Below, piece after piece: positions 9,044 to 37,273 of a stretch of 62,741 nt of DNA. Origin of the DNA: a candidate division Zixibacteria bacterium RBG_16_53_22 (GTDB lineage Bacteria; Zixibacteria; MSB-5A5; UBA10806); assembly GCA_001775395.1 (NCBI GenBank), contig MEWP01000142.1, positions 1-62,741 on the forward strand, given 5' to 3'. Position 1 is the first letter of the stretch. Each line of letters begins with the position of its first letter. A program made the translations under genes and the position numbers. Below the pieces are notes generated by a model that had not been told where the DNA came from, did not search any database, and saw nothing but the letters and a program-made list of their open reading frames with translations.

Positions 9044-10738
9044 TTATGCCGAGACTGTTTCCGGAAGCCCCACGGGGTCGGGGATTTTTTCCTGGGCGGC
9101 CGGAAGATAAACGACAAACCTGGTCGGCCAGTCCGGCGCTGAATCTATATCGATCCGCCCCCCGAGACAGTCCACGATGCGAGCGACAATCGGCAATCCC
9201 AGGCCGGTACCATCGGCTTTGGTCGAAAAGAATGGCTCGAATATCTTCTCCCGAAGATTTTCGGGGATGCCCGGCCCGTTGTCGGCGACTATCAGACGCA
9301 CCATCCCGGCCTCGCCCGGATCGCGGCATTCATCGGCGGAGATTTTGATAATGCCGACAGACTCATCCACGGCCTGGGAGGCGTTGAGCAGCAGGTTCCA
9401 CAGGATCTGTTTAATTTGATCGTCGCCACCCGACACGAAAATGCGCGACTTGCGCATGTATCGCAGGATATGAATCGACTGACTGATCTGGCCGTGGCTC
9501 GAGGCCAGGGCGATTACCTCCGATATGACGGATACCAAATCACATCGGCCACTCGAAACTCTCGTGACTCGAGCGAAATTGAGGAAGTCGGTGAGGATAG
9601 TGTTGAGGCGCGCCGATTCCTTGACGATGAGATCGAGCAAGCGAAGATCATCGCCCTGAAGCCGGAGGTCGTCTTTGAGCACTTCCACCGAACCCGATAT
9701 CGAAGCCAGAGGGTTGCGAATCTCATGGGCGATGCCTGCCGCCAGACGGCCGATGGCAGCCAGCCTGTCGGAGGCTCTCAAGCGGGCCTCGAGTTTCTTG
9801 GCTTCAGTCAAATCCTGGAATATTGCGATAATACCGCGCGGCCTGCCATCGTCGGAAAGGACAGACAAAGATATTCCCAGGGGCAGTTCGCCTTTTTCGG
9901 GATGATTGATATTTATCTCCGACCGCAGCTCGGAGCGGCGGCTGGAAAGCGCGCTCTCTATTCGCTCGATAAAATTCTGTAATCCGGAGTGGAAAAGTTG
10001 ATGGATGGTCCGGTCTTGGGCCAGGCGATGATCGACCCCCAGAATTTCTCCGGCGGCCCTGTTGAAATAGACTATCCTGCCGTTAGAGTCGATGGTCATC
10101 AGGCCGGAATGCATTTGCTCGAGAATTTCATTAGTCTCAAAGCGGATTTTCTTTAATTCACGCGAGGCCCAGAAGAGGTTTTCCGCCAGGTATCCGGATA
10201 TGAAGGCGCAAAAGTAAAAGAGGCATAGATGCAGGAAAACGGTATAAAAGGCCTCGTCGGACGATATGCCCATTCCGGCCAACCTGGTAGGCTCGATCAG
10301 CCCCTCGTAAAGCGCGGAGAGGTCGAGAAAAATCGGCAGCGAATAGAGCAGCCCGGCCATCGTGGCGACCACGATTGAACCGATCAGCCGAAACATGAGG
10401 CTGGCCGTCACGATAGTAATGATAAAGAAGATGACGAATGGCGAGAAATTGCCTCCGACATGGTTGACGAGTAACCCCTCGATAATCAGCTCCCCCGAGA
10501 TAAGCACTATCAGCGCCGACCTGATGATGCTCTCGGACAACCTGCGGAAAAGAAGCAGGCAGACCAATAGAATCAATGAAAAAAGCCCATAGAGAAAGAG
10601 AATGGCGTCATTGAAAGTGGTGGGACGGAGGAAAACGATGCCCGAGCCGATCAAGAGGGCCGGAATCGCAAGACGCAACGCCACGAACCAGCGACGCCTG
10701 CTAAGTGGAATGACCTGAAACTCTCTGACGTTTGACAT
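9044..10738 (-). CDS. PilS-like membrane sensor histidine kinase (PAS-HisKA-HATPase)
   Basis: The 564-residue protein has six hydrophobic helices in residues 20-190, a PAS domain (about 200-310), a HisKA domain with phospho-acceptor His338 in 'AAGIAHEIRNPLASI', and an ATPase domain with N-box ('NLLLNASQA', about 448), DNGPG (486-490) and GTGLGL (510-515). This six-helix PAS-kinase plan is that of PilS, which with the regulator PilR controls pilin transcription. It lies directly after the pilB-pilT-pilC end of the motility cluster. No response regulator is encoded in the window. Its ribosome site (GGAAAGAGG) lies inside the preceding terminator hairpin. NtrB-type or other kinases of similar layout cannot be excluded. 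Confidence 0.83.
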   Translation of the reverse strand: MSNVREFQVIPLSRRRWFVALRLAIPALLIGSGIVFLRPTTFNDAILFLYGLFSLILLVCLLLFRRLSESIIRSALIVLISGELIIEGLLVNHVGGNFSPFVIFFIITIVTASLMFRLIGSIVVATMAGLLYSLPIFLDLSALYEGLIEPTRLAGMGISSDEAFYTVFLHLCLFYFCAFISGYLAENLFWASRELKKIRFETNEILEQMHSGLMTIDSNGRIVYFNRAAGEILGVDHRLAQDRTIHQLFHSGLQNFIERIESALSSRRSELRSEININHPEKGELPLGISLSVLSDDGRPRGIIAIFQDLTEAKKLEARLRASDRLAAIGRLAAGIAHEIRNPLASISGSVEVLKDDLRLQGDDLRLLDLIVKESARLNTILTDFLNFARVTRVSSGRCDLVSVISEVIALASSHGQISQSIHILRYMRKSRIFVSGGDDQIKQILWNLLLNASQAVDESVGIIKISADECRDPGEAGMVRLIVADNGPGIPENLREKIFEPFFSTKADGTGLGLPIVARIVDCLGGRIDIDSAPDWPTRFVVYLPAAQEKIPDPVGLPETVSA

Positions 10739-10800: not shown

Positions 10801-12000
10801 TTAATTTATCTTGCCGATAATGTCGAACATCGGCAGGTACATGGCGATCAGAATTCCACCTATCATGATACCCATGAACACAATGATAACCGGCTCGATA
10901 ATCGAGGTCAAAGCGGCCACGGCGGCATCGACCTCCTCGTCATAGAAGTCGGCGATCTTGGAAAGCATCTCGTCCAAGCCACCGGTCTTTTCGCCGACCG
11001 AGATCATTTGAGTCACCATCGGAGGGAAAACCCCTGAGTCCTTGAGTGGGGCCGTGATGGTCTCGCCCTCGGCGATTGAGAGCATGGCTCTCCTTATGGC
11101 ATTCTGCAGAACCATGTTGCCGGAGGTTCTGGCGGTGATGTTCAAGGCATCGAGAATCGAGACACCGGATGAGAGCAGGGTCGAAAGCGTTCTTGTAAAG
11201 CGTGAGATTGAGCTTTTCCGGATCAGGTCGCCAAGAAGCGGCAGGCGCAGCTTGAGCTTATCGACCGAGAGCCTGCCGGACGGCCGCCTGACATAGAGCT
11301 TGTAGCAAATTGCCAGGCCGATCGCCCCAATTATCATGAGCAGGGTGTTGCTTTGCAGGAATTTCGAGATGTTAAGGACTATTTGAGTGGGCGCCGGGAG
11401 CTCCGCTCCCAAACCGGAAAACATCTTGGCGAAAACCGGCACGATGAATCGCAACATGGCGAATGTGACACCGATGGCCACAATCATGACTACAGCCGGG
11501 TAGACCATGGCGCCTTTCACCTTGCGTATCAATCGGTCGGCCTTTTCACGGTAAGAGGCCAGACGGATGAGGATTGTGTCGAGCGCGCCGCCCACCTCGC
11601 CGGCCTCGACCATATTGACATAAAGCTCGTCGAACGTCTTTTTGTGCCGGCCCAGAGCCTCCGACAAAGTAGAACCCGACTGAACCGATTCCTTAACCTC
11701 GGTGATGACTTTGCGAAATTCAGGACTCTCCGTCTGGGATGCCAGAATTTCGAGACACTGCACCATCGGCAATCCAGCCGAGATCATGGTGGCGAACTGC
11801 CGCGTGAATCGCGAGATATCGATTTTTTTGATGCCGCTGCCAAACCTGATGTTTATCTGCGAGGGCTTTTTAGAGACGCTTGTGACGAGGATCTTATTGG
11901 CCCGCAAATAGCGCTCCAATTCGGAGCGGTTCTTGGCCTTGAGCTCCCCATTAACCGCCTTGCCCCCCAGGGTTTTACCCTTGTAATCGTAGACGGGCAT
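10801..12000 (-). CDS. pilC: type IV pilus platform protein PilC (first copy)
   Basis: The 399-residue protein is a GspF/PilC inner-membrane platform protein. It has two T2SSF domains, each opening with the family's aromatic/phenylalanine motif ('ISRFTRQFATMISAGLPMV' and 'ISRFTRTLSTLLSSGVSI'), three membrane helices and the glycine-rich C-terminus 'EPVIIVFMGIMIGGILIAM'. PilC couples the cytoplasmic ATPases PilB and PilT to pilin polymerisation and removal. It begins five bases after pilT and ends at a strong terminator. A second pilC lies at 34203-35456. Confidence 0.94.
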   Translation of the reverse strand: MPVYDYKGKTLGGKAVNGELKAKNRSELERYLRANKILVTSVSKKPSQINIRFGSGIKKIDISRFTRQFATMISAGLPMVQCLEILASQTESPEFRKVITEVKESVQSGSTLSEALGRHKKTFDELYVNMVEAGEVGGALDTILIRLASYREKADRLIRKVKGAMVYPAVVMIVAIGVTFAMLRFIVPVFAKMFSGLGAELPAPTQIVLNISKFLQSNTLLMIIGAIGLAICYKLYVRRPSGRLSVDKLKLRLPLLGDLIRKSSISRFTRTLSTLLSSGVSILDALNITARTSGNMVLQNAIRRAMLSIAEGETITAPLKDSGVFPPMVTQMISVGEKTGGLDEMLSKIADFYDEEVDAAVAALTSIIEPVIIVFMGIMIGGILIAMYLPMFDIIGKIN

Positions 12001-12005
12001 ATTGC

Positions 12006-13115
12006 TTACCTCTCAATCTTTTCGATAAGACTCTTGTTTGTGCCGTCGGCGCGCGCGCTGGCCTGCCTGATCATCTCCTCAAACTCCGCCGCGTTGGACG
12101 ATCTGCCAACCGCGTCGTTATATGATATCTTTCGCTTCTGGAATATCTCCGCAAGCGACTGATTCATCGTCTTCATGCCGTACTTGGCGCCGGCCTGGAT
12201 CAGCGAATAAATCTGATGAATTTTGTCGTCGCGAATGACGGCCCGGACCGCCGGCGTCACGATTAGTATTTCCATGGCCAATACCCGGCCGCCGCCTATC
12301 CTCGGTATTAATTGCTGAGTCACGATTCCCTGCAGCACAAATGAGAGCTGGATCCGCACCTGCTCCTGCTGGTTGGTGGGGAACACGTCGACAATTCGGT
12401 TGATGGCCTCGGCGGTGGAATTGGTGTGAAGAGTCGCGAAAGCCAGGTGGCCGGTCTCGGAAATCGTCAGGGCGGCTTCCATGGTCTCGAGGTCTCGCAT
12501 CTCGCCTATGAGTACAACGTCGGGGTCTTGCCGCAGGGCATACTTCAGGGAGTTTGCGAAACTCTTGGTGTCGGAATGAACCTCCCTCTGATTGACTATT
12601 GAATTCTTATGCCTGTGCAGATATTCGATCGGATCCTCAACCGTGATTATATGATAATTGCGCTCGTCGTTGATTTTATCGATCAGGGCTGCGAGCGTGG
12701 TCGATTTACCCGAGCCGGTCGGCCCGGTGACAAGAACCAGCCCTCGTGGAAGCTCCGCCAGCTTGGTCACGACCTCGGGGACACCGAGCTCCTCGAACGA
12801 CATCACTTTGAACGGGATCTGCCTTATGGCCGTGGCCACGTTGCCTCTCTGCATGAACACATTACAGCGGAACCGCGAGAGCTGCTCGATGCCAAACGAC
12901 AGGTCGAGTTCGGAGTTTTCCTCGAACTTCTGGCGCTGCCTCTCATTCATGATCGAATAAGACAATTTCTTGGTGATATCCGGTGTCAAAATGTCAAATT
13001 CGGTCTTCACCAATTTGCCGTCGATTCTCAAAATAGGCGGCGCGCCTACGGTCAAATGCAGATCGGAGGCATGGCGTTTGACCATTAATTCAAGCAATTC
13101 TCTTAGCGTTACCAT
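12006..13115 (-). CDS. pilT: type IV pilus retraction ATPase PilT (first copy)
   Basis: The 369-residue protein matches PilT in length and motifs: 'AIRQIPF' near residue 96, Walker A GPTGSGKST (131-139), Walker B 'DPDVVLIGEMRDLET', and a His box in 'ETGHLAFATLHT'. PilT hexamers pull pilin subunits out of the fibre. The segment matching the retraction motif AIRNLIRE reads AVRAVIRD here, so it is partly degenerate; the other PilT in the window keeps AVRNLIRE. The gene sits between pilB and pilC in the polarity cluster. It could be a PilU-like accessory motor. Confidence 0.93.
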   Translation of the reverse strand: MVTLRELLELMVKRHASDLHLTVGAPPILRIDGKLVKTEFDILTPDITKKLSYSIMNERQRQKFEENSELDLSFGIEQLSRFRCNVFMQRGNVATAIRQIPFKVMSFEELGVPEVVTKLAELPRGLVLVTGPTGSGKSTTLAALIDKINDERNYHIITVEDPIEYLHRHKNSIVNQREVHSDTKSFANSLKYALRQDPDVVLIGEMRDLETMEAALTISETGHLAFATLHTNSTAEAINRIVDVFPTNQQEQVRIQLSFVLQGIVTQQLIPRIGGGRVLAMEILIVTPAVRAVIRDDKIHQIYSLIQAGAKYGMKTMNQSLAEIFQKRKISYNDAVGRSSNAAEFEEMIRQASARADGTNKSLIEKIER

Positions 13116-13167
13116 ATTTATAAACCCTCTTATTTATTTATCGACAAATAATTTTCGGACTGAAGCG

Positions 13168-14862
13168 TCACAATGCCGTCTCGGCTACCACTTCTTCGAT
13201 GGTAGAGATACCGAGGCGCAGCTTTTCAAGGCCGGCATGTCTGAGGCTCAGCATACCCTCCTTTATGGCATGAGCTCTGATTTCCGCCGACGAAACGCCC
13301 TGGACAATCAACTTCTCGATCGAGGCCGTTATTGGCATGACCTCAAAAAGTCCGGTCCGTCCCGAATAGCCGGTATTATTGCATTGGTTGCATCCCTTGC
13401 CCTCGTACAGCTTGAGGCTCTTGGCCTGTTCGGGGTCGAGCTCCAGGAGTTCTATAATCTGCGGCGTGACAGGAATTTCCTGCTTGCAGAAATTGCATAT
13501 CTTGCGGACCATTCTCTGGGCCATGATGAGCTTGGTAGATGCCGCCACCAAGTAGCTTGGCACGCCCATATCCACCAGCCTGTTTATAGTCGACGGCGCG
13601 TCGTTAGTATGCAGAGTCGAAAACACCAAATGCCCGGTGAGCGCTGCCTTGATGGCGATATCGGCCGTCTCGGCATCGCGTACCTCGCCGACCATGATAA
13701 TGTCCGGGTCCTGGCGAAGGAACGAGCGCAGGGCGGCGGCAAAGGTCAGGCCAATGTCGGTTCTGACCAACACCTGGTTGATGCCATCGAAATTGAATTC
13801 CACCGGGTCTTCGGCGGTCATGATATTGACATCGACCGTATTGAGCGTTTTAAGCGCCGAATACAGGGTCGTGGTCTTGCCCGAACCGGTGGGGCCGGTA
13901 ACGAGGATCATCCCGTACGGCAGGCTTATCGCTTTCGCGAAGTTCTTCAGGGCCAGTTCCGGGAAACCAAGCCTGGTGAGATCGATCATCAGGGATTTGG
14001 GGTCCAGGATTCGCATCACGATTTTTTCGCCGAATATTGTCGGCAGAACAGAAACGCGGAGGTCGATCGTGCGCTCGCCGAGCTTGACCTTGATCCTGCC
14101 ATCCTGGGGCAGACGGCGTTCCGAGATGTCGAGATCGGCCATGATCTTAATACGCGATATCATAGCCGCTCGATATTTGAATGGGATGGGGGCCATCTCC
14201 TGCAAGGCGCCGTCGATACGGTAGCGTACGCGCACGCGCTTTTCATAGCTTTCGAAGTGGATATCGGACGCGCCCTTTCGGATGGCGTCCGCTATGATAC
14301 CGTCAACCAGCTTAACGAGCGGCTTGTCCTGGACCTGTGACTGCAGGTCCTGCTCCGACGGTTGGTCCTCCGGCGCTTCCTCGATAACCTCGAGGTCGCT
14401 GGCCATGCCCTTGATAATTTCGTTTATGCCGCCGGAATCATCATAATAAGATTCTATCGCATTCTGGATGGTGGTTTCCGGCGAGATGACCGGCTGAATA
14501 TTGCATCCAGTGATAAATTTAATGGCGTCCAAGACATATATATTATTCGGATCGGAGATGGCAACGATGAGCGTTTTGCCCAGCTTGGAGACCGCGATGA
14601 CATTGAACTTGCGGGCAATGTCCTGCGGGATTAGCTTGACGATGTCGGGGTTGAGCTCTATATCGGTCAGCCTGATGGCGCCGATATTCAGCTGCTTGCC
14701 GATAAATTCCGAAATGATATTTTCATCGGTCACGGCGCCGATTTTTACGAGGATCTCGCCCAGCTTTCCCCCGCCCGTTTTCTGCAGTTCGAGGGCTTTT
14801 AGAAGCTGCTCGTCGGTGATCTTACCCGCTTTTACGAGAATCTTGCCTAACTCAATCGCCAT
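13168..14862 (-). CDS. pilB: type IV pilus extension ATPase PilB (first copy)
   Basis: The 564-residue protein has a GspE/PilB N-terminal domain (residues 1-150, 'IELGKILVKAGKITDEQLL') and a secretion ATPase domain with Walker A GPTGSGKTT (323-331), 'RQDPDIIMVGEVRDAET' and a C-terminal tetracysteine zinc site ('CNFC' and 'CNQCNNTG'). Such ATPases drive pilus extension from the cytoplasmic face. T2SS GspE is similar, but the neighbouring pilT and the pilM-Q set elsewhere in the window favour PilB. The gene follows the roadblock and GTPase genes by 40 bases and precedes pilT. Confidence 0.93.
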   Translation of the reverse strand: MAIELGKILVKAGKITDEQLLKALELQKTGGGKLGEILVKIGAVTDENIISEFIGKQLNIGAIRLTDIELNPDIVKLIPQDIARKFNVIAVSKLGKTLIVAISDPNNIYVLDAIKFITGCNIQPVISPETTIQNAIESYYDDSGGINEIIKGMASDLEVIEEAPEDQPSEQDLQSQVQDKPLVKLVDGIIADAIRKGASDIHFESYEKRVRVRYRIDGALQEMAPIPFKYRAAMISRIKIMADLDISERRLPQDGRIKVKLGERTIDLRVSVLPTIFGEKIVMRILDPKSLMIDLTRLGFPELALKNFAKAISLPYGMILVTGPTGSGKTTTLYSALKTLNTVDVNIMTAEDPVEFNFDGINQVLVRTDIGLTFAAALRSFLRQDPDIIMVGEVRDAETADIAIKAALTGHLVFSTLHTNDAPSTINRLVDMGVPSYLVAASTKLIMAQRMVRKICNFCKQEIPVTPQIIELLELDPEQAKSLKLYEGKGCNQCNNTGYSGRTGLFEVMPITASIEKLIVQGVSSAEIRAHAIKEGMLSLRHAGLEKLRLGISTIEEVVAETAL

Positions 14863-14902
14863 TATATTGCCTGATGACGGACTGCTCGAATTTCAATTGC
14901 AA

Positions 14903-15394
14903 CTAAAACTTGTCCTGGAAAATGTCATCGAGCTTGGCCTCGGCGGTATCGGAAAATTCCTTGCCCAGCTCGAGGCTTTCGCTTTTTGACGTATGTCCGC
15001 TTTCGAGTATGCCCTTGAGCGACTCGCCAATCTCCTTGGAATAAAGCCTGATCATGCCGATTGTGGTCCTGTCATCGAAAATAATGACCAGGATGGTCCG
15101 GTCGTTTATCAGCGAAATGTGGATATGGTCCTTCTTCCCCTGGTGAAAGAGAACCGAGAATTCCGGCTCGCCGACAAGGCGCGCGATTTCCTTGGTGGAA
15201 GCGAAACTCCCCGCCAGGAGCGCGGCCAGAGCGGTTGTATCGAGAGTGTGGGTAAAACCCTGGCGCGTGACCAGATGCCCATCCTTATCAACCAGCAAGG
15301 CGCACTTGGCCTCGGCTTCCTTGATTATGCGCATCAAGGCCTGGTCTATCTGCTGAATTTGATCCTCGTAAAGGACCTGTTGTTCGCGTGACAA
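14903..15394 (-). CDS. roadblock/LC7-domain protein, fourth of the cluster
   Basis: The 163-residue protein has an alpha/beta roadblock/LC7 fold: 'CALLVDKDGHLVTRQG', a helix with 'LAALLAGSFASTKEIARL', then 'HIHISLINDRTILVIIFD'. Roadblock proteins bind small Ras-like GTPases and may act as GAPs (MglB) or scaffolds. It has helical extensions at both ends, and its acidic C-terminal tail of about 35 residues may reach a partner. It lies between the MglA-like GTPase gene and pilB, spaced 26 and 40 bases. Confidence 0.86.
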   Translation of the reverse strand: MSREQQVLYEDQIQQIDQALMRIIKEAEAKCALLVDKDGHLVTRQGFTHTLDTTALAALLAGSFASTKEIARLVGEPEFSVLFHQGKKDHIHISLINDRTILVIIFDDRTTIGMIRLYSKEIGESLKGILESGHTSKSESLELGKEFSDTAEAKLDDIFQDKF

Positions 15395-15420
15395 CTTAAA
15401 CCTCCTTTATGGAACGGCCT

Positions 15421-16647
15421 CTATTTTGACTCCTTGAGCAATCCAAAAAATGTGAACTTACGTCGCTTGCCCTTGACCTTTCGGCTCTCAGCCATCTGGG
15501 GACGACCCAGCGCCATGGGAACTCGCAAGTCTATCTCAGGCACCAGAACCGTATCCTCCCCCTTGGCATTGCCATAGTCCTCGTCGAGCACATACTGCGA
15601 TTTTTTGCGGGCCGGCTTCTTCTCCTCGGTCTCGCTGTAATCGTGAGTCAGGGGAAGGCTTTCGTATTCGGCGGCCACCTTCGAATCAGTTTCATTCAAC
15701 CCATTTTTCAAGACGGTTCTCTCGGTGGTCTCTTCCAGATCATCCTTCTCTTCCTGGATCTCGTAGTAGGGCTTCGGCTCGTCGGCTCGATCGGATACGA
15801 CGACGTTGGTGGGCGTATCGGCATCGGCCATAATGGCCGGCTCGATAGTCCTAGTCCCGATCTTGTCTCGGGTGCGCAATACCTCGAGCGGAACCTCAAC
15901 CGCCTCCGAAATGCCGTTGCGATGATTGGCCGGGGTTTTGTCGAAATTCCGCGAGGGTTCCGGTATCGGCGCCAGCGGCCTCTCGATTCTCGCAGACGCT
16001 GCCGGCGGCCCGCCGACCGGCACCGCTATCGGCTGTGCCTTCAAAGCCCGGACTGGTTCCGTCTTCTTGGCTTTGACCTGGTCGAGGACCATCTTGCTGA
16101 TTGCCTTTAGTGTCTTAAAGACACCCTCGCCTGTTACCGCCACCGCCTCGAAATATGGAACTCCCTTTAGGTTGAGTGTCCGCTCCAGCTCCTCGATCGA
16201 GCCTATATTCGGCAGGTCGCGTTTGTTATACTGTATAACCAGGGGTATTTGGTTAATGTCGTAGCCATACTCCTCGAGGTTGTCCCGCAAATTTTGAAGC
16301 GATTCCAGATTCTCCTCCATCTTGGCGGTCTGGCTATCGGCCACAAAGACCAACCCATCGACCCCGCGCAGCACGAGCTTGCGGGTGGCATTGTAATAGA
16401 CCTGGCCGGGCACGGTGTATAGCTGGAATTTCGTGGCGAATCCCTGTATGGTTCCGACATTGACTGGCAGAAAATCGAAGTAGAGGGTCCTGTCGGCATC
16501 GGTGGCCAGGCTTATCAACTCTCCCCTGGTCTCGCTGGGCACTTTCTTGAAAACATACTGGAGATTAGTCGTTTTCCCCGAAAGGCCCGGGCCGTAGTAG
16601 ACGATCTTGGAGATAATTTCCTTGAACGCGTAATTTATCGATACCAT
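15421..16647 (-). CDS. MglA-like small GTPase with a 210-residue C-terminal extension
   Basis: Residues 1-195 are a full MglA-type GTPase: P-loop GPGLSGKTT (19-27), the MglA-type switch with 'TVPGQVYYNATRK' (78-90) and the base-binding motif NKRD (141-144). MglA in Myxococcus sets the leading pole and so the direction of pilus-based movement. MglA is normally about 195 residues. Here a low-complexity tail (196-408) rich in Pro, Glu and Lys follows and ends in a basic, aromatic segment 'RKVKGKRRKFTFFGLL'. The tail may bind a roadblock, a PilB or the membrane. Neighbours are four roadblock genes, pilB, pilT and pilC. Confidence 0.9.
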   Translation of the reverse strand: MVSINYAFKEIISKIVYYGPGLSGKTTNLQYVFKKVPSETRGELISLATDADRTLYFDFLPVNVGTIQGFATKFQLYTVPGQVYYNATRKLVLRGVDGLVFVADSQTAKMEENLESLQNLRDNLEEYGYDINQIPLVIQYNKRDLPNIGSIEELERTLNLKGVPYFEAVAVTGEGVFKTLKAISKMVLDQVKAKKTEPVRALKAQPIAVPVGGPPAASARIERPLAPIPEPSRNFDKTPANHRNGISEAVEVPLEVLRTRDKIGTRTIEPAIMADADTPTNVVVSDRADEPKPYYEIQEEKDDLEETTERTVLKNGLNETDSKVAAEYESLPLTHDYSETEEKKPARKKSQYVLDEDYGNAKGEDTVLVPEIDLRVPMALGRPQMAESRKVKGKRRKFTFFGLLKESK

Positions 16648-16664
16648 ATAATATCAACCCTTCT

Positions 16665-17003
16665 CTACTGTCCCTTTATCTGAGATATTGCGTTCTTGAT
16701 CTCAAGCCTTACCAAACCGACGTTGACATTCGGCTCGGTGACGACCGCCAGTATCCCCACGCCGGCGTCGCTTAAGAAAATCTTCCCGGCATCGGCCTCT
16801 ATCGTGACGCGATCAGGGGTTTGCTGTTTTAGCCTTTCGAGAGCGCGGCCGACATTCGACATGATCGAAGCCGCCATGGCGCCGACAGTTTCATCTTCCA
16901 GCCGCGCATCCAGATCGGCCGCTATGATAATGCCATCATTGCCGACCAGCATCGAGCCCTTGACTCCCGAGGTCCTGTTGAGTTCGCTTAGGACGTTATA
17001 CAT
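16665..17003 (-). CDS. roadblock/LC7 protein, MglB-like
   Basis: The 112-residue protein is a minimal roadblock/LC7 domain, the closest in this cluster to MglB in size. Key stretches are 'KGSMLVGNDGIIIAADLD', the helix 'VGAMAASIMSNVGRALERL' and 'GKIFLSDAGVGILAVV'. The ATG at 17003 is preceded by a strong GGGAGG site; an ATG eight codons upstream has none. It overlaps the preceding roadblock gene by eight bases and ends 17 bases before the GTPase gene. This gene pair, MglB then MglA, is the usual order of the system, and it is probably the GTPase-activating partner. Confidence 0.87.
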   Translation of the reverse strand: MYNVLSELNRTSGVKGSMLVGNDGIIIAADLDARLEDETVGAMAASIMSNVGRALERLKQQTPDRVTIEADAGKIFLSDAGVGILAVVTEPNVNVGLVRLEIKNAISQIKGQ

Positions 17004-17445
17004 ATATAGCCTCCCGGCTTCTTGCATTTTTCTTCGAATTATCGATCGCTGATGAAACAGAGTATTTCTCTTTTACATAGGAAGATATCAGCTCGAGCGA
17101 ACGAGTTATCCTGATGTGAAGGAGATCGTCCGCCTGGCGATCCGCAACCACCAGCAGCATGACAGGAGGCGAAACGGCTATCGTCAGCCAATCATGCGAG
17201 GTTTTTATCACCAGATACTCGATTCCCGGCTCGAAAAGCCTGTGAAAAGGAACCCCCACTGCGTTGATGATTTCCATGGCATAGGCGGCGTACTTCTCGA
17301 GCTCGAAATTTTTCGCGCCGCGACCGGTCAGGACCAGACCCTCGTGATCGGCTATGACAACGCCCCTGACACCCGAATATTCAGCCAGATAGGCAACGGC
17401 GTTTTGAAATTTATCGACGCTCTTTGGTTTTTTGGCTCGACCCAT
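16996..17445 (-). CDS. roadblock/LC7-domain protein
   Basis: The 149-residue protein carries a roadblock fold: 'VRGVVIADHEGLVLTGRG', the helix 'LEKYAAYAMEIINAVG', and 'YLVIKTSHDWLTIAVSPPVMLLVVAD'. A basic N-terminus ('MGRAKKPKSVDK') and a charged C-terminal tail are extra. It overlaps the MglB-like gene by eight bases, so the two are probably made together and may form a heterodimer. Its exact role is unknown. Confidence 0.84.
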   Translation of the reverse strand: MGRAKKPKSVDKFQNAVAYLAEYSGVRGVVIADHEGLVLTGRGAKNFELEKYAAYAMEIINAVGVPFHRLFEPGIEYLVIKTSHDWLTIAVSPPVMLLVVADRQADDLLHIRITRSLELISSYVKEKYSVSSAIDNSKKNARSREAIYV

Positions 17446-17459
17446 AATCTATCCAACAG

Positions 17460-18311
17460 CTACAATTCTATGTTCCCGAACAATTCATCCACCTTTAACT
17501 TCAGCGCTCCCATGCTGACATCATCACGGGAATAGACGACCAGGAAATATTTGCGCTTCTTGATAATCCAGATCTTCGCGGCCGCGGTTTCGATCAAGAC
17601 CTCGAAGGCGGCCCCCAATCCCACCCTCGACATGCTTTGAACGACGTTATCGTATATGCCTTTGGACAACGCCCCAAACTCCTCCTTGGAATAACTGCTG
17701 TCGATCCTGGCCTCCAAAATCAAACCCTCGTTACCGACTGCCAGCACGCCCAACACCCGCGGCGTAATTTTCAGGAGGCCTATCGCCTGAGGAAGAGAAA
17801 TGCCCTTCTTTTCGACGGCATGTTCCTGCGGGCTATGATCGAAAGCCGGTTCGCCGACGTTCCGAGTCTTGGGTTCGAGGCGAACCGAAGTTGTCTCTTC
17901 CTTTTCTATCATTTCCAGCAGCCGCTTGATATTCTCGTCGTCGGGGTCGCTGCCGGATAACCTGTCGATAATGGCCGCGGCCTCCGACTTCTGGCCCCGT
18001 CTGATGAGAATCTCCGCCTCGAGCAGATCGGTTGACCTCGTCCGTCCGGCTATGTCGATGGTGCGCTGAAGCTCGGTCCAGGCCTGCTCGTAATTTTCCT
18101 TGGCCAGGTGGATCTTGGTCATGACTATTCTGGCGGACGCATATTCGGGGTGAAGCATCAGGCCCTGATGACATATATCATAGGCCCTGACGACATCGCC
18201 ACTTTTCCGGTAGGCGTCAGCCAGAGCCGCAAAAATCTGGCTCTGCGGATCGGCCGCCAGGATTCTTTCGCATTTTGCAATACGATCATCTATCTCAACA
18301 GTATCGAACAT
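17460..18311 (-). CDS. TPR protein with C-terminal roadblock domain
   Basis: The 283-residue protein joins an N-terminal TPR region (about 1-130, with 'IFAALADAYRKSGDVVRAYDI' over a helical pair) to a charged linker and a C-terminal roadblock/LC7 domain ('VLGVLAVGNEGLILEARIDS'-type segment, 'KIWIIKKRKYFLVVYSRDD'). The ATG at 18311 has a GAGG site six bases away and is preferred to a GTG four codons upstream. The TPRs could bring a partner to the GTPase complex. It lies 14 bases before the next roadblock gene. Confidence 0.84.
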   Translation of the reverse strand: MFDTVEIDDRIAKCERILAADPQSQIFAALADAYRKSGDVVRAYDICHQGLMLHPEYASARIVMTKIHLAKENYEQAWTELQRTIDIAGRTRSTDLLEAEILIRRGQKSEAAAIIDRLSGSDPDDENIKRLLEMIEKEETTSVRLEPKTRNVGEPAFDHSPQEHAVEKKGISLPQAIGLLKITPRVLGVLAVGNEGLILEARIDSSYSKEEFGALSKGIYDNVVQSMSRVGLGAAFEVLIETAAAKIWIIKKRKYFLVVYSRDDVSMGALKLKVDELFGNIEL

Positions 18312-18387
18312 ATGGGACCTCACAGGTCAATCTGACTAAATAAGTTATCGACAATAATGCCGGGATGTTTAGGGCCAACGCCGATTC

Positions 18388-18753
18388 CTATCTCAATCCC
18401 TTCCGGTATAAATAAAGACCCACCATGAAGAGCAATACCGAGCCGACTCGGGTCACCAACATGGCCAGGCGCAAATCATATTGATTCAGGACGATTTCAA
18501 ATAATTCGAGCAGCCGTATCGCGCCGCCAACCGCCGCTACGGCGATGCCGGCCAGGATGAACAGCCAGGGAGTCCCCAGACTTCCGCCCTTTAGCGCCGA
18601 GAAGATTATCGCGGCCAAAAGCAGGCAAACTACCGAGAAGAACATAAACAGCGATTCCTGCAGAATTGCATACTGTGTCTGGTCCATCGCGCAAGCCACG
18701 CCGCTATCCGCAGCAATCACAGTCAGGGTCAGGAAAAAGACACGAGCCGGCAT
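18388..18753 (-). CDS. small membrane protein of the motility cluster
   Basis: The 121-residue protein has a signal-like N-terminus and then three hydrophobic helices ('SLFMFFSVVCLLLAAIIFSAL', 'PWLFILAGIAVAAVGGAI', 'VTRVGSVLLFMVGLYLY'). No family is recognised. It starts one base after the PATAN gene ends, so the two are tightly coupled. It may anchor or sense for the roadblock/GTPase complex, but this is only inferred from position. Confidence 0.68.
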   Translation of the reverse strand: MPARVFFLTLTVIAADSGVACAMDQTQYAILQESLFMFFSVVCLLLAAIIFSALKGGSLGTPWLFILAGIAVAAVGGAIRLLELFEIVLNQYDLRLAMLVTRVGSVLLFMVGLYLYRKGLR

Positions 18754-18754
18754 A

Positions 18755-19921
18755 TTACCTGTCCCTCAAGGCCCGCGAGAACTCCTCTTCCAGGCCGTAT
18801 TTCATGGCAATTTGCCGGTTGCGATTGATAGTGTTCTGGATATTGATTTTTATTTCCGATAGGACGCGCCTGTAGATCTTATTCCCCAGATTCTTCTGCA
18901 CGGCGATCAAGTAGTCGTTCATCAGGGAGTTGAAGTTGGATACCAGGCGCCAAATCCTGGCCTCCTCCGGCAGCCTTTTATAGAGCTCCACGAAAAGGTC
19001 GAGTTTAACCTGGCCATCGCGACCGCTGAAAATCTGGTTCAGCACCGGATAAAACATCCTGTTTTCCTCAAAGGTCTCGTAGATTACCCTTTCGCCTTTG
19101 GCGCCGAGTTTCTCTTTAAGGTTCGAGAATATGAATATCAAATTTCCTATGTAGACATTGGCCAGAAGCTCGATCAGCGCCTTCTGCTCCACCTCGGCCG
19201 TCTTGTCGACCGCCACATGCTTCCCGATTTTAAGGAGGCCCATATTGAGCAGATTGGCGATCGATTTGCAGGTTAGAAATTGATCCAGAAAGCTCTCCTC
19301 GACTATCTTCTGGAGCGTCTTGCCGGCGCCGATCAAGGCCAATACCATGAATTCGCTCCTGGACAGGTTCATCTCCTCCGATTTCATGGCCGGCTCCGGC
19401 ACGATTTCCAGAAAGGCATCATCGGGGGGCAGGATTTTCTTGAGCTCCTCCCATTCGTCGATTCGCCTCATCCCCTCCATTATCATATTCATGGGATTCA
19501 ACTCGGTCTGGATAACGCTGGCCGGGGGAGCTTTGCCCTCGGTCAACTCGAATTTCCCGTCCTTCCAGCCGAACAGGGCATAAACGATCTCCTCGATCTG
19601 CATCTTGAGGCATTCGAAGATTTCCTCTTTGGAGAATAGTTTTTTTTCGACCAGGAGGGCCCCGATCTTCTTGCCTTCGTTTTCGGTGTTGAGGATCTCG
19701 TCGAGCTCGGCCTTGGAGATGCGGCCCTTCTTGAGCAGGAGATTTCCGAAAAGGTCTTCGCGGGAGTTTGACGAGGCATAGACCAGCAGGCCGTCGCGGA
19801 AATATATATCGCGCCTGGCCTCGTCCCTGCTGATAGATAACATGCCGGTCTTCTTTGATGAGACGATCAGCTGGAAAACGTCTGGCAGCGAAACGGTTTT
19901 CAGGTTACCGGCAAACCCCAA
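18755..19921 (-). CDS. PATAN/DUF4388-domain protein
   Basis: The 388-residue protein begins with a PATAN (DUF4388) domain: 'GNLKTVSLPDVFQLIVSSKK', 'GMLSISRDEARRDIYFRDG' and 'YALFGWKDGKFELTEG'. The rest (about 170-388) is mostly helical with no known family. PATAN domains are common in regulators of pili and gliding, and in cyanobacteria bind pilus and phototaxis partners. The start is a TTG with a GAGAGG site eight bases upstream. It begins 13 bases after comEC ends and is the first gene of the GTPase module. Confidence 0.85.
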   Translation of the reverse strand: MGFAGNLKTVSLPDVFQLIVSSKKTGMLSISRDEARRDIYFRDGLLVYASSNSREDLFGNLLLKKGRISKAELDEILNTENEGKKIGALLVEKKLFSKEEIFECLKMQIEEIVYALFGWKDGKFELTEGKAPPASVIQTELNPMNMIMEGMRRIDEWEELKKILPPDDAFLEIVPEPAMKSEEMNLSRSEFMVLALIGAGKTLQKIVEESFLDQFLTCKSIANLLNMGLLKIGKHVAVDKTAEVEQKALIELLANVYIGNLIFIFSNLKEKLGAKGERVIYETFEENRMFYPVLNQIFSGRDGQVKLDLFVELYKRLPEEARIWRLVSNFNSLMNDYLIAVQKNLGNKIYRRVLSEIKINIQNTINRNRQIAMKYGLEEEFSRALRDR

Positions 19922-19934
19922 TTTGGAATCCTCT

Positions 19935-22232
19935 CTATTTTCGCGGCTTCATTGTCTCGAGTTCGATGGCGCCGCCGAAGCCGCTGACAGCGAAAGCGCC
20001 GCAAAGCGATGTCGACAGGATCTTTTCGCGCGAATGCGTTAACTTCTCGCGTCTTTCCGGCGCAGTGACCGAGTATCTGTCTGGAGAAAATATTGCGAAC
20101 TGCGGATCGCATTTATAAAGTATCTCCAGAGACCTGCTTTGGGCATACCGGCTCCAGGGCAGCTCGATGAGCATTATGTTGCTGGCGAATATTTCCTCAC
20201 GAATCGTCATACCTGCCCAGCCGGCCAGAATTAATACACTCCCGTCAACACCAATCTCTATAGCGGGATAAGCCAATGCCCCCGCATTGGTATTATCGGA
20301 TTGATCCCATAGGACCTTAATGCCGGGCAAAGAAACATTGGCGCCTATAATGGAATCGATACGCGATTTAAACGGCTCTTTGACCTCAAGCGTAACGATC
20401 TTTGAATCGAATTCCGATGCGATGCGGTCGATTTCGCGGCATCCGGGCGTAACGGTCAGAATGATATCCGGACCATGATCGTAACTGCTTAATATATGGG
20501 GAATTACGATGTCATCGGCGTCGCTGCCCGGCTCGTAGATATCAAGACCCGCGACCGTGGGTTGTCCCGCGGCCGTGAAGATCCAGGCGTGATTTCGACG
20601 CAGGTCGAGAAACTCCAGCCTCCAATCCGGATGCCGTTCGAGTGCCTTGCCCCAGATGAGGATATTCAGCGCGACCAACATCGAGATGAGCGCGCGCCGG
20701 CTCAACCGGTGTCGGATGGCGTTCTCAAAGACAATATAAAAGGCGAGCCAGAAGAGAATAATCGCGTCCCAGCCGGGAGAGGCCGATACAATCTTGGCAT
20801 GCGGCAGCGAAGCGAAAAACCTCAAGATCGCGATTATAATATCGAGAACAATCTGCAGGGGCACAGCCGCCGCCAGCGGCAGCCATCCGCCAATAATGGT
20901 AAAGGCGAGAAGAGCGATTCCGAACGTAATGGCGAGTCCGGCAAGCAACATGACAGGGACATTCGCCAGCGCCCCCAGAACCGGGATGCTGTGAAAATGA
21001 TGCGCCACGAGCGGCAAGACTGCGACTTGGGCGGCCGATGTGCCCAGGAGCGCCAGGGCCACCCATTTCAACCATCTTAAATAAGGTCGATCTAAGACCT
21101 TGGTGACTCCCGTAAGACCCGGCAAAGCGTAGATAATCCCGAACGTGGCGGCAAATGACAATTGAAAGCCGACGTCGAATAAGTGAGAAGGTTGCCAGAG
21201 GAGCATCAAGAGGCCGGCAAAGGCCAACAGGTTGATAAGGTCTGGTTTCCTCATCCAGCCATAGGCGAAGATTACGACCGCCGCCATTATTGACGCTCTT
21301 ATCACCGATGGCTCCAACCTGGTTAGTATCGCAAAGGCCGCAACGACCAAGAGAAGGACAACCGCCTTTACGCTCCTGGGCAGATGAAAAAGGGATAACA
21401 GGCACCCGAATATGAGAAGCACCATGCCGACATTGGAGCCGGATACCGCCATGAGGTGCATCGTGCCGGTGTCCCTGAAAAGCCTCTGATAATCTTTGGG
21501 CAACTCCCGCCTCTCCCCCAGGGCAAACCCTGTCAACATCGATGATTTTTCCGAAGAAAGATATTGTTTTGCTATCGAGGTCAGCTTCTGCCTGAACGGG
21601 GTCACTGAAGAACTTACAAACGAATCCCCTCCCTTGACAACGACGACATTCGAGGGATCTGATACATAGGCCTCGGCGAAAATCTCCTTCATTTTCAGAT
21701 AGGCCGAGTAGTCAAAGCCTAAAGGATTGGTGGCTCCGGAGGGTTTGTACAGAAAGCAGGCGATCTCAAGGTAATCATCGTGGCTTATGTCAAGCCCGGG
21801 CTGGGATATTCTGACCCTGATTCGTCCGAGAGTCGGAATCCAGGCTCGATCGAGACGCAGGGAATCGACCTCCAGAATCAAATAGGTCTTGTCCGGCCTG
21901 AAATCCGGTTCCTCTATCACGCGGCCGGCGATATCGGTCCGGATACCTTCACCCACGATATTTGCGATATGATTGGGCGGGAACGGCCCCAGCGAGACCG
22001 CCGCCAGATGCCAGCCCAGAAACGATAGCGATAGCATCAAGAAAATCGAGGCCGCCCGGGCAGCCTGTCTGAAATGCAGATAGAGAGCGCACAGGAATAC
22101 AGCGGCAAATGAAATAAGCGGATAATAATAAGGAATGTGGAATTGTGTTGAGGCTAAAATGCCGGCGATCAGGAATACAAGCGCTACTAATGCTGGACGG
22201 CGACCGAACAGCGAGTGATCAGGATCGCTCAT
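19935..22232 (-). CDS. comEC: ComEC/Rec2 DNA-uptake channel
   Basis: The 765-residue protein has an N-terminal DUF4131-like domain, a competence domain with many membrane helices ('GTMHLMAVSGSNVGMVLLIF', 'LEPSVIRASIMAAVVIFAYG', 'HLFDVGFQLSFAATFGIIY'), and a C-terminal soluble domain. ComEC carries one DNA strand across the inner membrane in natural transformation. The C-terminal part lies where other ComEC proteins have a metallo-beta-lactamase domain, but no HxHxDH is present. It overlaps the upstream acyltransferase gene by four bases and shares the transcript of the pilus motor genes. Confidence 0.92.
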   Translation of the reverse strand: MSDPDHSLFGRRPALVALVFLIAGILASTQFHIPYYYPLISFAAVFLCALYLHFRQAARAASIFLMLSLSFLGWHLAAVSLGPFPPNHIANIVGEGIRTDIAGRVIEEPDFRPDKTYLILEVDSLRLDRAWIPTLGRIRVRISQPGLDISHDDYLEIACFLYKPSGATNPLGFDYSAYLKMKEIFAEAYVSDPSNVVVVKGGDSFVSSSVTPFRQKLTSIAKQYLSSEKSSMLTGFALGERRELPKDYQRLFRDTGTMHLMAVSGSNVGMVLLIFGCLLSLFHLPRSVKAVVLLLVVAAFAILTRLEPSVIRASIMAAVVIFAYGWMRKPDLINLLAFAGLLMLLWQPSHLFDVGFQLSFAATFGIIYALPGLTGVTKVLDRPYLRWLKWVALALLGTSAAQVAVLPLVAHHFHSIPVLGALANVPVMLLAGLAITFGIALLAFTIIGGWLPLAAAVPLQIVLDIIIAILRFFASLPHAKIVSASPGWDAIILFWLAFYIVFENAIRHRLSRRALISMLVALNILIWGKALERHPDWRLEFLDLRRNHAWIFTAAGQPTVAGLDIYEPGSDADDIVIPHILSSYDHGPDIILTVTPGCREIDRIASEFDSKIVTLEVKEPFKSRIDSIIGANVSLPGIKVLWDQSDNTNAGALAYPAIEIGVDGSVLILAGWAGMTIREEIFASNIMLIELPWSRYAQSRSLEILYKCDPQFAIFSPDRYSVTAPERREKLTHSREKILSTSLCGAFAVSGFGGAIELETMKPRK

Positions 22233-34202: not shown

Positions 34203-35456
34203 TTAGCTGATGCCCTTTCTGAAAGCGAACCCCATGTAGAACACGGGCAGGTAAATAATGATGACTATGGTCCCAATGACAATCGCGATCAGCACAATCA
34301 GCATCGGCTCGATCAGCGAAGTCAGACGCGTAATCACGGCCTCGAGCTGTTTGTCATAGAATGAGGCCGCCTTGGAAAGCATCTTGTCCATGTCGCCGGT
34401 CTCCTCGCCGGTGGCGGCAAGTGAAATCAGCGTATTGGGGAAAGCGTCGGTCTTCTTCAGCGAGGCCGCGATGGAAAACCCGTCCCTGATCAGACCGGTT
34501 GCCTCGCGGACCGCACGTTTATAGTGGACGTTGTCCATTACCCTGTAAACCAGGTTCATGGAATCGACCACCGGAACGCCGGCCCCCAGAAGCATCCCAA
34601 AGGTGCGGCAAAACTTGCTCATCAGCGAATTGATGATGATATTCTTGATGATCGGTATGTTCAGCTTGATGCGATCGACCACCTTCCGGCCGGTCTCGGT
34701 CAGGCCGATCACGATGAATGCGCAAGCAGCAAACACCAGGCCGATCAATGTGTATATTATATTGGCGCTGATAACGTCGGAAACGTGAATGAGAATCTGG
34801 GTCGGTACCGGAAGTTGGGCGTTGAATTTGGAATAGACATTCTGGAACATCGGCACCACCCACGCCATCAGAACGATCGTCAACATTGTCAGCACAACCA
34901 CCACAAACGACGGGTATGACATGGCCGAAAGTATCTTGCGCTTGGTGTCCTGAATGAATTCAAGATAGTCGGATAATTCCTCGAGCACCCCGTGGAGAGA
35001 TCCGGAGATTTCGCCCGAACGAACCAGGGCGATATATAGCGGTGTGAAAACGCCGGGGTGCCTTTCCATGGCATCCGATAGCGAAAAGCCCTTCTTGACA
35101 TCGTTCAGAAGCTGGGCGACCACCTTCTTGAATTTCTTGTTGGACTCCTCATAAAGAAGATTGTTCAGGGCCTTCTCGATTGTCAATCCGGCCGAGAACA
35201 TGGTCGCCATCTGGCGCGTGAAGAATACGAGAGTTCCCAGCGGAACGTGGGTTCGGAGCTTGTAGATAAAAAGCGATATCTCATCTATCAGGCCCCTCTT
35301 CCTGGCCGAATCCGCCACCTTGGAATCCAGCACCGAGATTACGGTCTGGCCCGATTCGCGAAGCTTGTTCAGCGCCGCATCGAGAGAGGTCGCCGAGATG
35401 GTTCCCTCGTGTTTATTTCCCTTGCTGTCTTTAACTACATACGCGAATGTTGGCAT
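34203..35456 (-). CDS. pilC2: type IV pilus platform protein PilC (second copy)
   Basis: The 417-residue protein is a GspF/PilC platform protein with two T2SSF domains ('LVFFTRQMATMFSAGLTIEKA' split at the helix, and 'MSKFCRTFGMLLGAGVPVVDS') and a final hydrophobic helix. It is the last gene of the second pilus operon, after pilB2, and before a strong terminator. It is longer and clearly different from the copy at 10801-12000, so this is not a recent duplication. Confidence 0.93.
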   Translation of the reverse strand: MPTFAYVVKDSKGNKHEGTISATSLDAALNKLRESGQTVISVLDSKVADSARKRGLIDEISLFIYKLRTHVPLGTLVFFTRQMATMFSAGLTIEKALNNLLYEESNKKFKKVVAQLLNDVKKGFSLSDAMERHPGVFTPLYIALVRSGEISGSLHGVLEELSDYLEFIQDTKRKILSAMSYPSFVVVVLTMLTIVLMAWVVPMFQNVYSKFNAQLPVPTQILIHVSDVISANIIYTLIGLVFAACAFIVIGLTETGRKVVDRIKLNIPIIKNIIINSLMSKFCRTFGMLLGAGVPVVDSMNLVYRVMDNVHYKRAVREATGLIRDGFSIAASLKKTDAFPNTLISLAATGEETGDMDKMLSKAASFYDKQLEAVITRLTSLIEPMLIVLIAIVIGTIVIIIYLPVFYMGFAFRKGIS

Positions 35457-35521
35457 CTATATTCTCCCTCGACAGGCGAAAGTATCACTGCCTGCTAATG
35501 TCTGAAGGACAATTCTAGCAA

Positions 35522-37225
35522 TTAATCTTCGTCTACCGTTTTCTTGAGCACCTCTTCGGCCGAGACCTTTCCGGCAAGAACCTTCCTGATTCCAGCGTCG
35601 CGAAGCGTCAACATGCCGGCCCTGGTCGCCTCCAGCCTGATGTCGTCCTCATTCTTGCCCTCGAAAATGACCCTTCTGAGACCAAGCTTCATCTCCATCA
35701 GTTCAAAAAGCGCGGTCCTGCCGAAATGACCGGTGTTGCGGCATCTGACACACCCCCTGCCCTTGTAGAACATGACATCCTGGTACTTGTCGGGTTCCAT
35801 CTTCAGAGCGACAAACTCCTCGGGCGCCGGTTTGTATTCCTGCTTGCAGGCGCTGCAGATTGTTCTTACGAGCCGTTGCGCCATTACCAGGTTAGTCACT
35901 GAGCCGGCCAGATAACGGGGAACGCCGATGTCGAGCATCCTGGTGATGGTGGAGGGGGCGTCATTGGCGTGCAGCGTGGTGAATACCAAATGGCCGGTGA
36001 GCGCGAATTTTATGGCGATGTCTGACGTTTCCTTGTCTCTGATCTCGCCGATGAGGATTTTGTCCGGGTCCTGCCTGAGAATATGCCGCAGCGTGGTCCC
36101 GAATGATAAACCGATGGAATCATTGGTGGCGACCTGGTTGATCCTGTCGATTTGGTATTCGACCGGGTCCTCCACCGTTACGATATTGTCCTCCTCGTTC
36201 TGTACTGCCTTCAAGGCGGCATGCAACGTCGTTGATTTTCCACATCCTGTCGGGCCGGACACGATAATCATGCCATATGGCATGGTAATCCATTTGCGGA
36301 AAATCTGAAGCATGTCGTTTTCGAAACCGAGGTTGGCCAGGGTGAATTCAAAACCCTTCTTGTCCAGAAGCCGCAAGACGATTTTCTCGCCTCTTACCGT
36401 GGGCAGCACCGAGACACGGACATCTACCTCTCTCTCGGGCGTCTTGATGGAAATGCGGCCGTCCTGAGGCAGCCGCCGCTCCGCAATGTTGAGGTTGGAC
36501 ATGATTTTGAGTCGTGAGATTATGGCCGTCGCCGATTTAGCCGGAGCGGTCATAATTTCCTGCAGGGCCCCATCGATCCTGTACCTGACAAGCAGGGCAT
36601 CGAACAGCGGTTCGATGTGGATATCGGTGGCCCGGCTCTTGATGGCCTCCGATATTATGAGATTGACCAGCTTGACAATCGGGGCTTCGTCGAGTTCCTT
36701 TTTCAACTGGTTGACATCGATGTCATCAATCTCGCGCCCGTCGGCGGAGACAATGAAATCCATGCCCGAGAGGGCCTCGGAAACCTCACCCGTGGTGCGC
36801 AGCTCCTTGTAGTGGCGCTCGATAGCCTCGTCTATTATGAGCTGCGGCGCTATGCTCAGGGAAATCTGACTCTGCGTGATCTTATGCAGGTTGTCGATTA
36901 CGACGATATCCTCGGGATCGACCGTGACCACGTGGAGAATGTCGTTTTCCTTGCCGAAGGCCAGGCAATGATATTCCCGCGCGAAGAACTCCGGAATCAT
37001 CTCGAGGGCCGACTTATCAACCTTCATCAGGCCCTCGGCCGTCATCAGCGGAATCCCCAGCTGCCGGGAGAGGCCGAGAGCCAATTTCTCGTCGGTGATG
37101 AGGCCCTCGGCCAGCAGTACTTCGCCTAAACGCTTGCCATTTTCCTTCTGTCTCTTAAGGCCGATCTCCAGTTTATCATTAGAGATGAGTTTTTCCTTGA
37201 GAAGTACTTCTCCTAACAACTCCAT
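35522..37225 (-). CDS. pilB2: type IV pilus extension ATPase PilB (second copy)
   Basis: The 567-residue protein has the GspE N-terminal domain, Walker A GPTGCGKST, 'RQDPDKILIGEIRDKET' and two CxxC pairs ('CSACKQEY', 'CVRCRNTGHFGR'). It would power pilus extension with PilC2, 66 bases downstream. Motifs and linker differ from the first PilB, so both motors are probably in use. It follows the Ig-repeat lipoprotein gene by 48 bases. Confidence 0.93.
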   Translation of the reverse strand: MELLGEVLLKEKLISNDKLEIGLKRQKENGKRLGEVLLAEGLITDEKLALGLSRQLGIPLMTAEGLMKVDKSALEMIPEFFAREYHCLAFGKENDILHVVTVDPEDIVVIDNLHKITQSQISLSIAPQLIIDEAIERHYKELRTTGEVSEALSGMDFIVSADGREIDDIDVNQLKKELDEAPIVKLVNLIISEAIKSRATDIHIEPLFDALLVRYRIDGALQEIMTAPAKSATAIISRLKIMSNLNIAERRLPQDGRISIKTPEREVDVRVSVLPTVRGEKIVLRLLDKKGFEFTLANLGFENDMLQIFRKWITMPYGMIIVSGPTGCGKSTTLHAALKAVQNEEDNIVTVEDPVEYQIDRINQVATNDSIGLSFGTTLRHILRQDPDKILIGEIRDKETSDIAIKFALTGHLVFTTLHANDAPSTITRMLDIGVPRYLAGSVTNLVMAQRLVRTICSACKQEYKPAPEEFVALKMEPDKYQDVMFYKGRGCVRCRNTGHFGRTALFELMEMKLGLRRVIFEGKNEDDIRLEATRAGMLTLRDAGIRKVLAGKVSAEEVLKKTVDED

Positions 37226-37273
37226 TAAATTAAGCTCCTAATGCGTCATCCCGCCGGAGGCGGGAAAAAAATA

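Follow-up and report, generated by a model that had tools for sequence, protein, structure and literature searches.

The Ras-type GTPase MglA has a role in cell polarity or pilus placing in Thermus thermophilus. In Myxococcus xanthus, MglA-GTP binds the tetratricopeptide repeat (TPR) protein SgmX, which is required for polar PilB (PMC7519303, PMC11580455). Polar PilB depends on both SgmX and SopA, and no direct contact between SgmX and PilB was detected (PMC11580455). Moreover, additional roadblock-type partners tune MglB in this organism, namely its paralogue MglC (PMC7949163) and RomY, which is part of a bipartite GTPase-activating protein (GAP) complex (PMC9481161). In 2014, Wuichet and Sogaard-Andersen, like Makarova et al. 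whom they cite, described PATAN genes in the neighbourhood of Group 1 mglA/mglB (PMC4316618). The same survey lists Group 1 MglA genes that are paired with two MglB genes, so that the view of the original prediction, made for the present locus from its sequence, that there is usually one roadblock was too simple. Binding to PilB1 is known for PATAN regulators of Synechocystis, one of which, PixG, binds PilC as well (PMC12288463). Here we describe a row of ten genes that unites MglA, MglB, three further roadblock proteins and a PATAN protein with pilB, pilT and pilC in a contig of 62,741 nucleotides (MEWP01000142.1, C142 below) from candidate division Zixibacteria bacterium RBG_16_53_22; this whole contig is the window to which positions refer. 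All parts are of known kinds. What appears to be new is the fixed joining of an enlarged MglA module with a motor operon: in the openly licensed PMC literature we found no description of such an operon, of a tailed or membrane-spanning MglA, of a membrane roadblock, or of membrane-anchored bacterial Ras-like switches.

The gene list and coordinates first proposed for the row hold. Open reading frame (ORF) analysis of the contig places all ten frames on the minus strand between 19921 and 10801, with gaps of 1, 64, 14, -32, 17, 26, 40, 52 and 5 bases from the PATAN gene to pilC. The closest named relatives of the MglA domain belong to Candidatus Zixiibacteriota, with 89% identity to isolate UBA10806, and by this sequence match the host is a Zixibacterium. 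In the order of transcription, the features are as follows.

18755-19921, minus strand: PATAN protein (Pfam DUF4388), 388 residues, TTG start, proposed adaptor to PilB/PilC; PF14332 120 bits, 42% mean pairwise identity over 38 orthologues.
18388-18753, minus strand: small membrane protein, 121 residues, four hydrophobic stretches by hydropathy, the first of which may be a signal or anchor.
17460-18323, minus strand: TPR-roadblock protein, 287 residues; TPR_19 48.3 bits, Robl_LC7 15.8 bits, 35% mean identity.
16996-17445, minus strand: roadblock protein Rb2, 149 residues; Robl_LC7 29.1 bits, 27% mean identity.
16665-17027, minus strand: Rb1, a short generic roadblock, 120 residues; Robl_LC7 53.3 bits, 61% mean identity over 41 orthologues.
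15421-16647, minus strand: MglA of Group 1 type, 408 residues, with a GTPase domain (about 1-192) followed by an acidic linker and a C-terminus that is basic and aromatic.
15421-15492, minus strand: last 23 codons of mglA, candidate membrane-targeting tail, basic and aromatic; 43% mean identity versus 17% in the linker.
14903-15394, minus strand: MglB, a GAP-type roadblock, 163 residues, TTG start; Robl_LC7 46.7 bits, 69% mean identity over 40 orthologues.
13168-14862, minus strand: PilB, type IVa extension ATPase with an MshEN-type N-terminal domain; TIGR02538 721 bits, cut-off 675.65.
12006-13115, minus strand: PilT, retraction ATPase; TIGR01420 496 bits, cut-off 319.1.
10801-12000, minus strand: PilC, platform protein; T2SSF 228 bits.

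The order of these ten genes is a fixed trait of the Zixibacterial lineage. We read 44 Zixibacterial loci, comprising the window, 27 loci from 26 relatives and 16 named loci (L035-L050), of which L038 repeats L125 and is counted together with it among distinct loci. All ten genes lie on one strand in the same order in 29 of the 44 loci (28 distinct), and the remaining 15 carry a partial row, order unchanged, that ends at contig ends or, in genome G004, at a 100-N scaffold gap within pilB. The comparison with relatives that had been proposed as a check of the locus therefore returns one order in 44/44 loci as far as the contigs reach. Gene labels in these loci are the best scores among first-round profiles, at which stage those for PATAN, TPR-roadblock and Rb1 held wrong rows from locus L121; cleaned profiles were used for the conservation figures and for the reading of five loci outside the phylum. 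Of 118 genomes sampled across the phylum, 108 have MglA, with a single match each at E 1e-40, as do 75 of the 78 of good quality; among 30 relatives, MglA was found in 27. Two of the three relatives without an MglA match are G014, in which an MglA tail at a contig edge is followed by MglB, PilB, PilT, PilC and PilS, and G019, which is 52% complete. In G010 (96% complete), the block from PATAN to MglB is absent and 290 bases separate comEC from the pilB-pilT-pilC-pilS run behind it (locus L140, G010:C30, 12047-16719); a roadblock search of this genome returned no match. Because the block has been lost whole, PATAN to MglB behaves as one unit separate from the motor, and G010, which has kept the motor, is a ready comparison genome.

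By published sequence criteria, MglA of the row is a Group 1 protein (PMC4316618). The window protein matches the solved M. xanthus MglA over residues 3-192 (275 bits, 9.3e-81), and all 41 complete Zixibacterial MglA proteins have TVPGQ in G3 and, next to the threonine of G2, the arginine finger (DRT). The P-loop GPGLSGKTTN is exact in 39 of the 41 and the G4 motif NKRD in 40, exceptions being single-residue variants and the window protein having both, and wherever a locus extends far enough, the MglB gene comes after mglA. A single-domain MglA, consisting of the GTPase domain and about 195 residues long, is not what these genes encode: the 41 complete sequences run to 314-649 residues, and their C-terminal extension is absent from the short MglA proteins (mostly 192-197 residues) of mglB-mglA pairs among the loci read. 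A Pfam scan detected no roadblock domain in MglA.

The extension has two unlike parts. Its linker is variable (17% identity), 90-425 residues long and acidic, with a median net charge of -12. The tail, in 41/41 MglA proteins, has a net charge of at least +5 in the last 24 residues and at least two F or W in the last 14, these two residues making up 23.7% there versus 1.5% in the linker (L120 and L121, halves of one gene in the split G005 locus, were dropped before the tail counts). Together, the basic and aromatic criteria select none of 271 C-termini from seven neighbouring families and 80 of 2560 ORFs of at least 150 residues in the loci, MglA proteins included. Tail sequence differs by family (LFGWLKKK or FFKRLFGIK, for example), and 15 of the 41 tails contain F[FLI][KR][KR]LFG, a motif that forms the core of the membrane-targeting sequence of MinD and is present in the terminal KKGFLKRLFGG of the E. 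coli protein. In MinD, this C-terminal segment is an amphipathic membrane-targeting helix, a single copy of which binds weakly (PMC8155659). The MglA tail is a candidate membrane tether. A search of the genome for MinD itself gave no match above the TIGR01968 cut-off and nine weaker ones.

The roadblock protein encoded by 14903-15394, directly after mglA, is by sequence an orthologue of MglB, the known GAP: it matches the solved M. xanthus MglB (6izw) at 1.6e-33 over nearly its whole length, and it scores 93.6 bits with the NCBIfam Thermus MglB model, below the cut-off of 200. The label "MglB-like" had initially been given to the gene at 16665-17027, which encodes Rb1; the best solved relatives of Rb1 are the archaeal roadblocks 7yh1 and 9jue (1.6e-6), and MglB is reached at about 0.2, so that the label does not hold. 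Of 42 distinct Rb2 sequences, 32 are long (284-343 residues), and hydropathy shows two to four hydrophobic stretches, putative N-terminal membrane helices, within their first 150 residues; an AlphaFold2 model of the long form from L042 has the roadblock fold in a fold search. The Robl_LC7 score of the TPR-roadblock protein is below the cut-off of 23 in the window and above it in several orthologues. Since MglB (69%) and Rb1 (61%) are far better conserved than the TPR-roadblock protein (35%) and Rb2 (27%), we infer two constrained partners and two scaffolds. All four roadblock genes are inside the row; in the 28 of 30 genomes with Robl_LC7 matches, those listed are all on contigs carrying the row except G021:C156:40933 and G020:C75:20559.

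Profile scores identify PilB, PilT and PilC of the row as type IVa pilus motor proteins. Two PilB-like genes were tested with the PilB model, which was passed by that of the row and not by 35522-37225 (561 bits); a third is present on contig C24. PilB also carries the MshE-type cyclic di-GMP (c-di-GMP) motif (NF053729, 54.3 bits, cut-off 38). PilC scores 510.7 bits with the NCBIfam Myxococcus-type PilC model, below the cut-off of 700, and is under the cut-offs of the NCBIfam PilC models. For the PATAN protein, the match to the MshE-type c-di-GMP motif is 33.6 bits, below the same cut-off of 38, and the Pfam scan found DUF4388 and no Response_reg domain. A strong kinship between PATAN and PilB was considered and rejected: the cross-match of 82-86 bits came from a profile with one PilB row, taken from the split locus L121, and the clean profile gives at most about 35 bits. 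The small membrane protein keeps its position across Zixibacterial loci at just 24% mean identity, and it has no match in Pfam or NCBIfam.

Two flanking genes are part of the wider conserved neighbourhood.

19935-22232, minus strand: comEC by its sequence, of the DNA uptake channel type, upstream of the row; its position is kept in relatives, and it adjoins pilB where the module is missing (G010).
9044-10738, minus strand: PilS-like sensor histidine kinase with PAS, HisKA and HATPase_c domains, downstream of pilC in the loci that reach that far.

Beyond the module, comEC is joined as a conserved upstream neighbour, in several families, by a lipid A acyltransferase-like gene. The row was originally described as self-contained, which it is not. 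No guanine nucleotide exchange factor (GEF) is recognised in it. Alignment and secretin genes sit on contig C155 and at 34203-48826 of the window, so that what the row supplies is the motor and not a whole pilus system. The set on C155 is pilM-pilN-pilO-AMIN-secretin with a GspH-type pseudopilin (L152, G000:C155:55001-67000). That at 34203-48826 (minus strand) resembles a second pilus or a type II secretion system, and it comprises three pseudopilin-type genes, a PilT-family ATPase, pilM, pilN- and pilO-like genes, a secretin, a 970-residue protein with Big_1/invasin domains, the PilB/GspE-like gene at 35522-37225 and a GspF/PilC-like gene.

Versions of the module are found in other phyla. In the MglA clade that includes the Planctomycetota proteins, a single hydrophobic helix lies near the extreme C-terminus in 12 of 12 intact sequences (mean hydropathy 2.2-3.1), ten of which are labelled Planctomycetota or planctomycete and two of which carry no label; a further five are truncated where their contigs stop. 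Locus L090 has the order PATAN, TPR-roadblock, Rb1, MglA, MglB, and the Sumerlaeota locus L054 runs from TPR-roadblock through Rb2 (here with four hydrophobic stretches), Rb1, MglA and MglB to PATAN, after which comes a receiver-domain protein (L054:5290-6465) with a hydrophobic stretch at its C-terminus. In Gemmatimonadota, one run (L069:3878-13422) holds genes for a CheC-like protein, a 906-residue TPR protein, PATAN, TPR-roadblock, roadblock, MglB, MglA and a second PATAN protein. Thirteen outside genomes have a complete extended MglA of the Planctomycetota clade or of L054, and 12 of these (L097 was left out) were searched for PilT; among the PilT-family matches listed, a single one, in G037, shares a contig with the module, at a distance of about 32 kb, and the others lie on different contigs, several of the module contigs being short. 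A clean rule that the motor is missing next to mglA outside Zixibacteria is weakened by L074 (Gemmatimonadota), where a short mglB-mglA pair is preceded, at a distance of 733 bases, by a 583-residue ORF with a PilT profile score of 125 bits, and L111 is a second exception, with a PilB-like gene 7.7 kb after mglA.

In a tree of 81 MglA domains, the Zixibacterial proteins form one group (support 97/91), as do those of the Planctomycetota clade (100/99) and 41 others that are mostly of the short mglB-mglA type (100/98). Support for the union of the two tailed groups is just 82/81, and the tree tool gave a long-branch warning; a single gained clade for tailed MglA is therefore not firm. A Fibrobacterota gene (L061:10001-11371) encodes a 456-residue MglA that also has a basic, aromatic end, and it is preceded by a PATAN gene.

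We favour, with moderate confidence, the reading that a Group 1 MglA/MglB switch has been built into the type IVa motor operon of Zixibacteria, that it is probably membrane-tethered, and that it controls the motor through PATAN and roadblock adaptors. The basic, aromatic tail would tether MglA to the inner membrane, where MglA-GTP would be held among Rb1, Rb2 and the TPR-roadblock protein as scaffold, with MglB as GAP. From there, MglA-GTP may act on PilB and PilC via the TPR-roadblock and PATAN proteins and so license local extension, by which the switch would decide where or when pili extend; MglB, given a GAP role by orthology, would switch MglA off and end the signal. The TPR step is proposed by analogy because M. 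xanthus MglA-GTP acts through SgmX to place PilB at the pole, and the PATAN step because PATAN regulators of Synechocystis bind PilB1 and, in one case, PilC.

Several observations weigh against parts of this model. The motor can persist alone, as pilB, pilT and pilC do without the module in G010, and the original proposal that the switch is physically tied to its motor, while it stands as a fixed arrangement across Zixibacteria, does not carry over to Planctomycetota, Sumerlaeota and one Gemmatimonadota genome, where the module lacks pilB, pilT and pilC within the stretch read. Promoter and terminator scans of the row gave nothing above shuffles (9 sites versus 8.4, and 13 versus 12.6, respectively), so that co-transcription is read from gene spacing, and no polar landmark, like no GEF, is recognised in the row. 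The tail of the window's own MglA is not among the 15 with the MinD core. An amphipathic helix in the tail was rejected as evidence, the hydrophobic moment compared with 500 shuffles per tail giving p < 0.05 in 1 of 43 (two being the G005 fragments), and AlphaFold2 predicts that full-length MglA is disordered beyond about residue 198, with no tail helix. In addition, Rb2 is short (133-160 residues) and has lost its membrane part in 9/9 sampled members of the window's order, one further Rb2 being cut by a contig end.

The missing amphipathic signal and helix, the variation of the tail between families and the 26 of 41 tails without the MinD core would all suit a tail that docks onto PilB, PATAN or some other protein, or that binds nucleic acid, and is not a membrane tether; the MinD core in the other 15 and the hydrophobic helix at the equivalent place in the related Planctomycetota MglA speak against this alternative, which we consider fairly unlikely. 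It is also unlikely, in our view, that the module sets whether the motor runs (on/off or extension/retraction, with c-di-GMP or a kinase as input) and not the pole, the roadblocks then being a signalling platform. The above-threshold c-di-GMP motif in PilB and the weaker one in the PATAN protein, the PilS-like kinase at the end of the row, the receiver-domain and CheC-like proteins beside the Sumerlaeota and Gemmatimonadota modules, and the lack of any polarity-specific feature among our findings point in this direction, but the characterised Group 1 MglA proteins, that of M. xanthus (PMC11580455, PMC7519303) and that of T. thermophilus, act on polarity or pilus placing. The on/off and polarity readings are, moreover, compatible with each other. 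Finally, the row might be an ordinary operon of unrelated surface functions that are inherited together, MglA having no action on PilB, PilT or PilC. Synteny does extend past the module, to comEC and the lipid A acyltransferase-like gene, and the module is separate from the motor in other phyla; nevertheless, module and motor are adjacent in one order with short gaps in the 44 loci, and MglA, MglB, TPR and PATAN proteins have known links to PilB elsewhere (PMC12288463, PMC11580455, PMC7519303), which makes this account improbable.

The built-in, membrane-tethered switch that we favour can be set beside the M. xanthus module (MglA/MglB with MglC, RomY and RomR/RomX, and the effectors SgmX, FrzS and SopA), with which it has in common a Group 1 MglA with its arginine finger and TVPGQ, an MglB that is an orthologue, at least two partners of roadblock type, the involvement of a TPR protein and, as proposed here, PilB as target. 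In M. xanthus, an mglBA pair encoding an MglA of about 195 residues is apart from its partners (PMC4316618), whereas in Zixibacteria the order is mglA-mglB, MglA is longer and tailed, and the genes for PATAN, TPR-roadblock, Rb2, Rb1 and PilB, PilT and PilC adjoin. The ten genes include no recognised RomR/RomX GEF or SgmX, no search for their homologues having been made. The excerpts of the 2014 survey mention no TPR-roadblock, Rb2 or Rb1 genes, no tail on MglA and no row that takes in pilBTC (PMC4316618). Cyanobacterial PATAN response regulators such as PixG share with the window's PATAN protein the domain and the tie to the type IV pilus motor, but they carry a receiver domain, and the window's protein is encoded with an MglA switch. 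The route from MglA to PilB is unsettled in M. xanthus, and a lineage that keeps the switch, two adaptor types (TPR-roadblock and PATAN) and the motor in one operon provides a short list of proteins for the missing contact; the locus may thus show how a Ras-like switch steers pili.

Two further systems resemble the row in part. The likeness to MinD is confined to the tail, as MinD is a deviant Walker A ATPase and MglA a Ras-type GTPase, for which a membrane role of the tail is a candidate drawn from sequence. Ragulator (p18, MP1, p14, HBXIP and C7orf59) with the Rag GTPases has four roadblock proteins on one membrane-anchored platform and a Ras-like GTPase, and its fold is shared by the Rb2 roadblock domain in the fold search of the AlphaFold2 model. 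The Rag GTPases carry a C-terminal roadblock, however, and MglA none, and the anchor of Ragulator is a lipidated subunit that is not a roadblock; with the Zixibacterial side known from genes, this likeness is an analogy only. More speculatively, and with considerable doubt, we suggest that a membrane-bound MglA lineage (with a basic, MinD-like tail in Zixibacteria and a hydrophobic C-terminal helix in Planctomycetota) on a platform of roadblock proteins of three kinds (TPR-linked, membrane and free), hard-wired by its operon to PilB/PilT/PilC in Zixibacteria, might be a bacterial counterpart of the Ras/Rag switch. If its tail binds reversibly and MglB is its GAP, it could form patterns on the membrane in the manner of MinD/MinE and place pili without RomR/RomX landmarks. 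Ras has a hypervariable tail; if the MglA tail does bind the membrane, bacterial Ras-like switches, like eukaryotic ones, would come in membrane-anchored forms.

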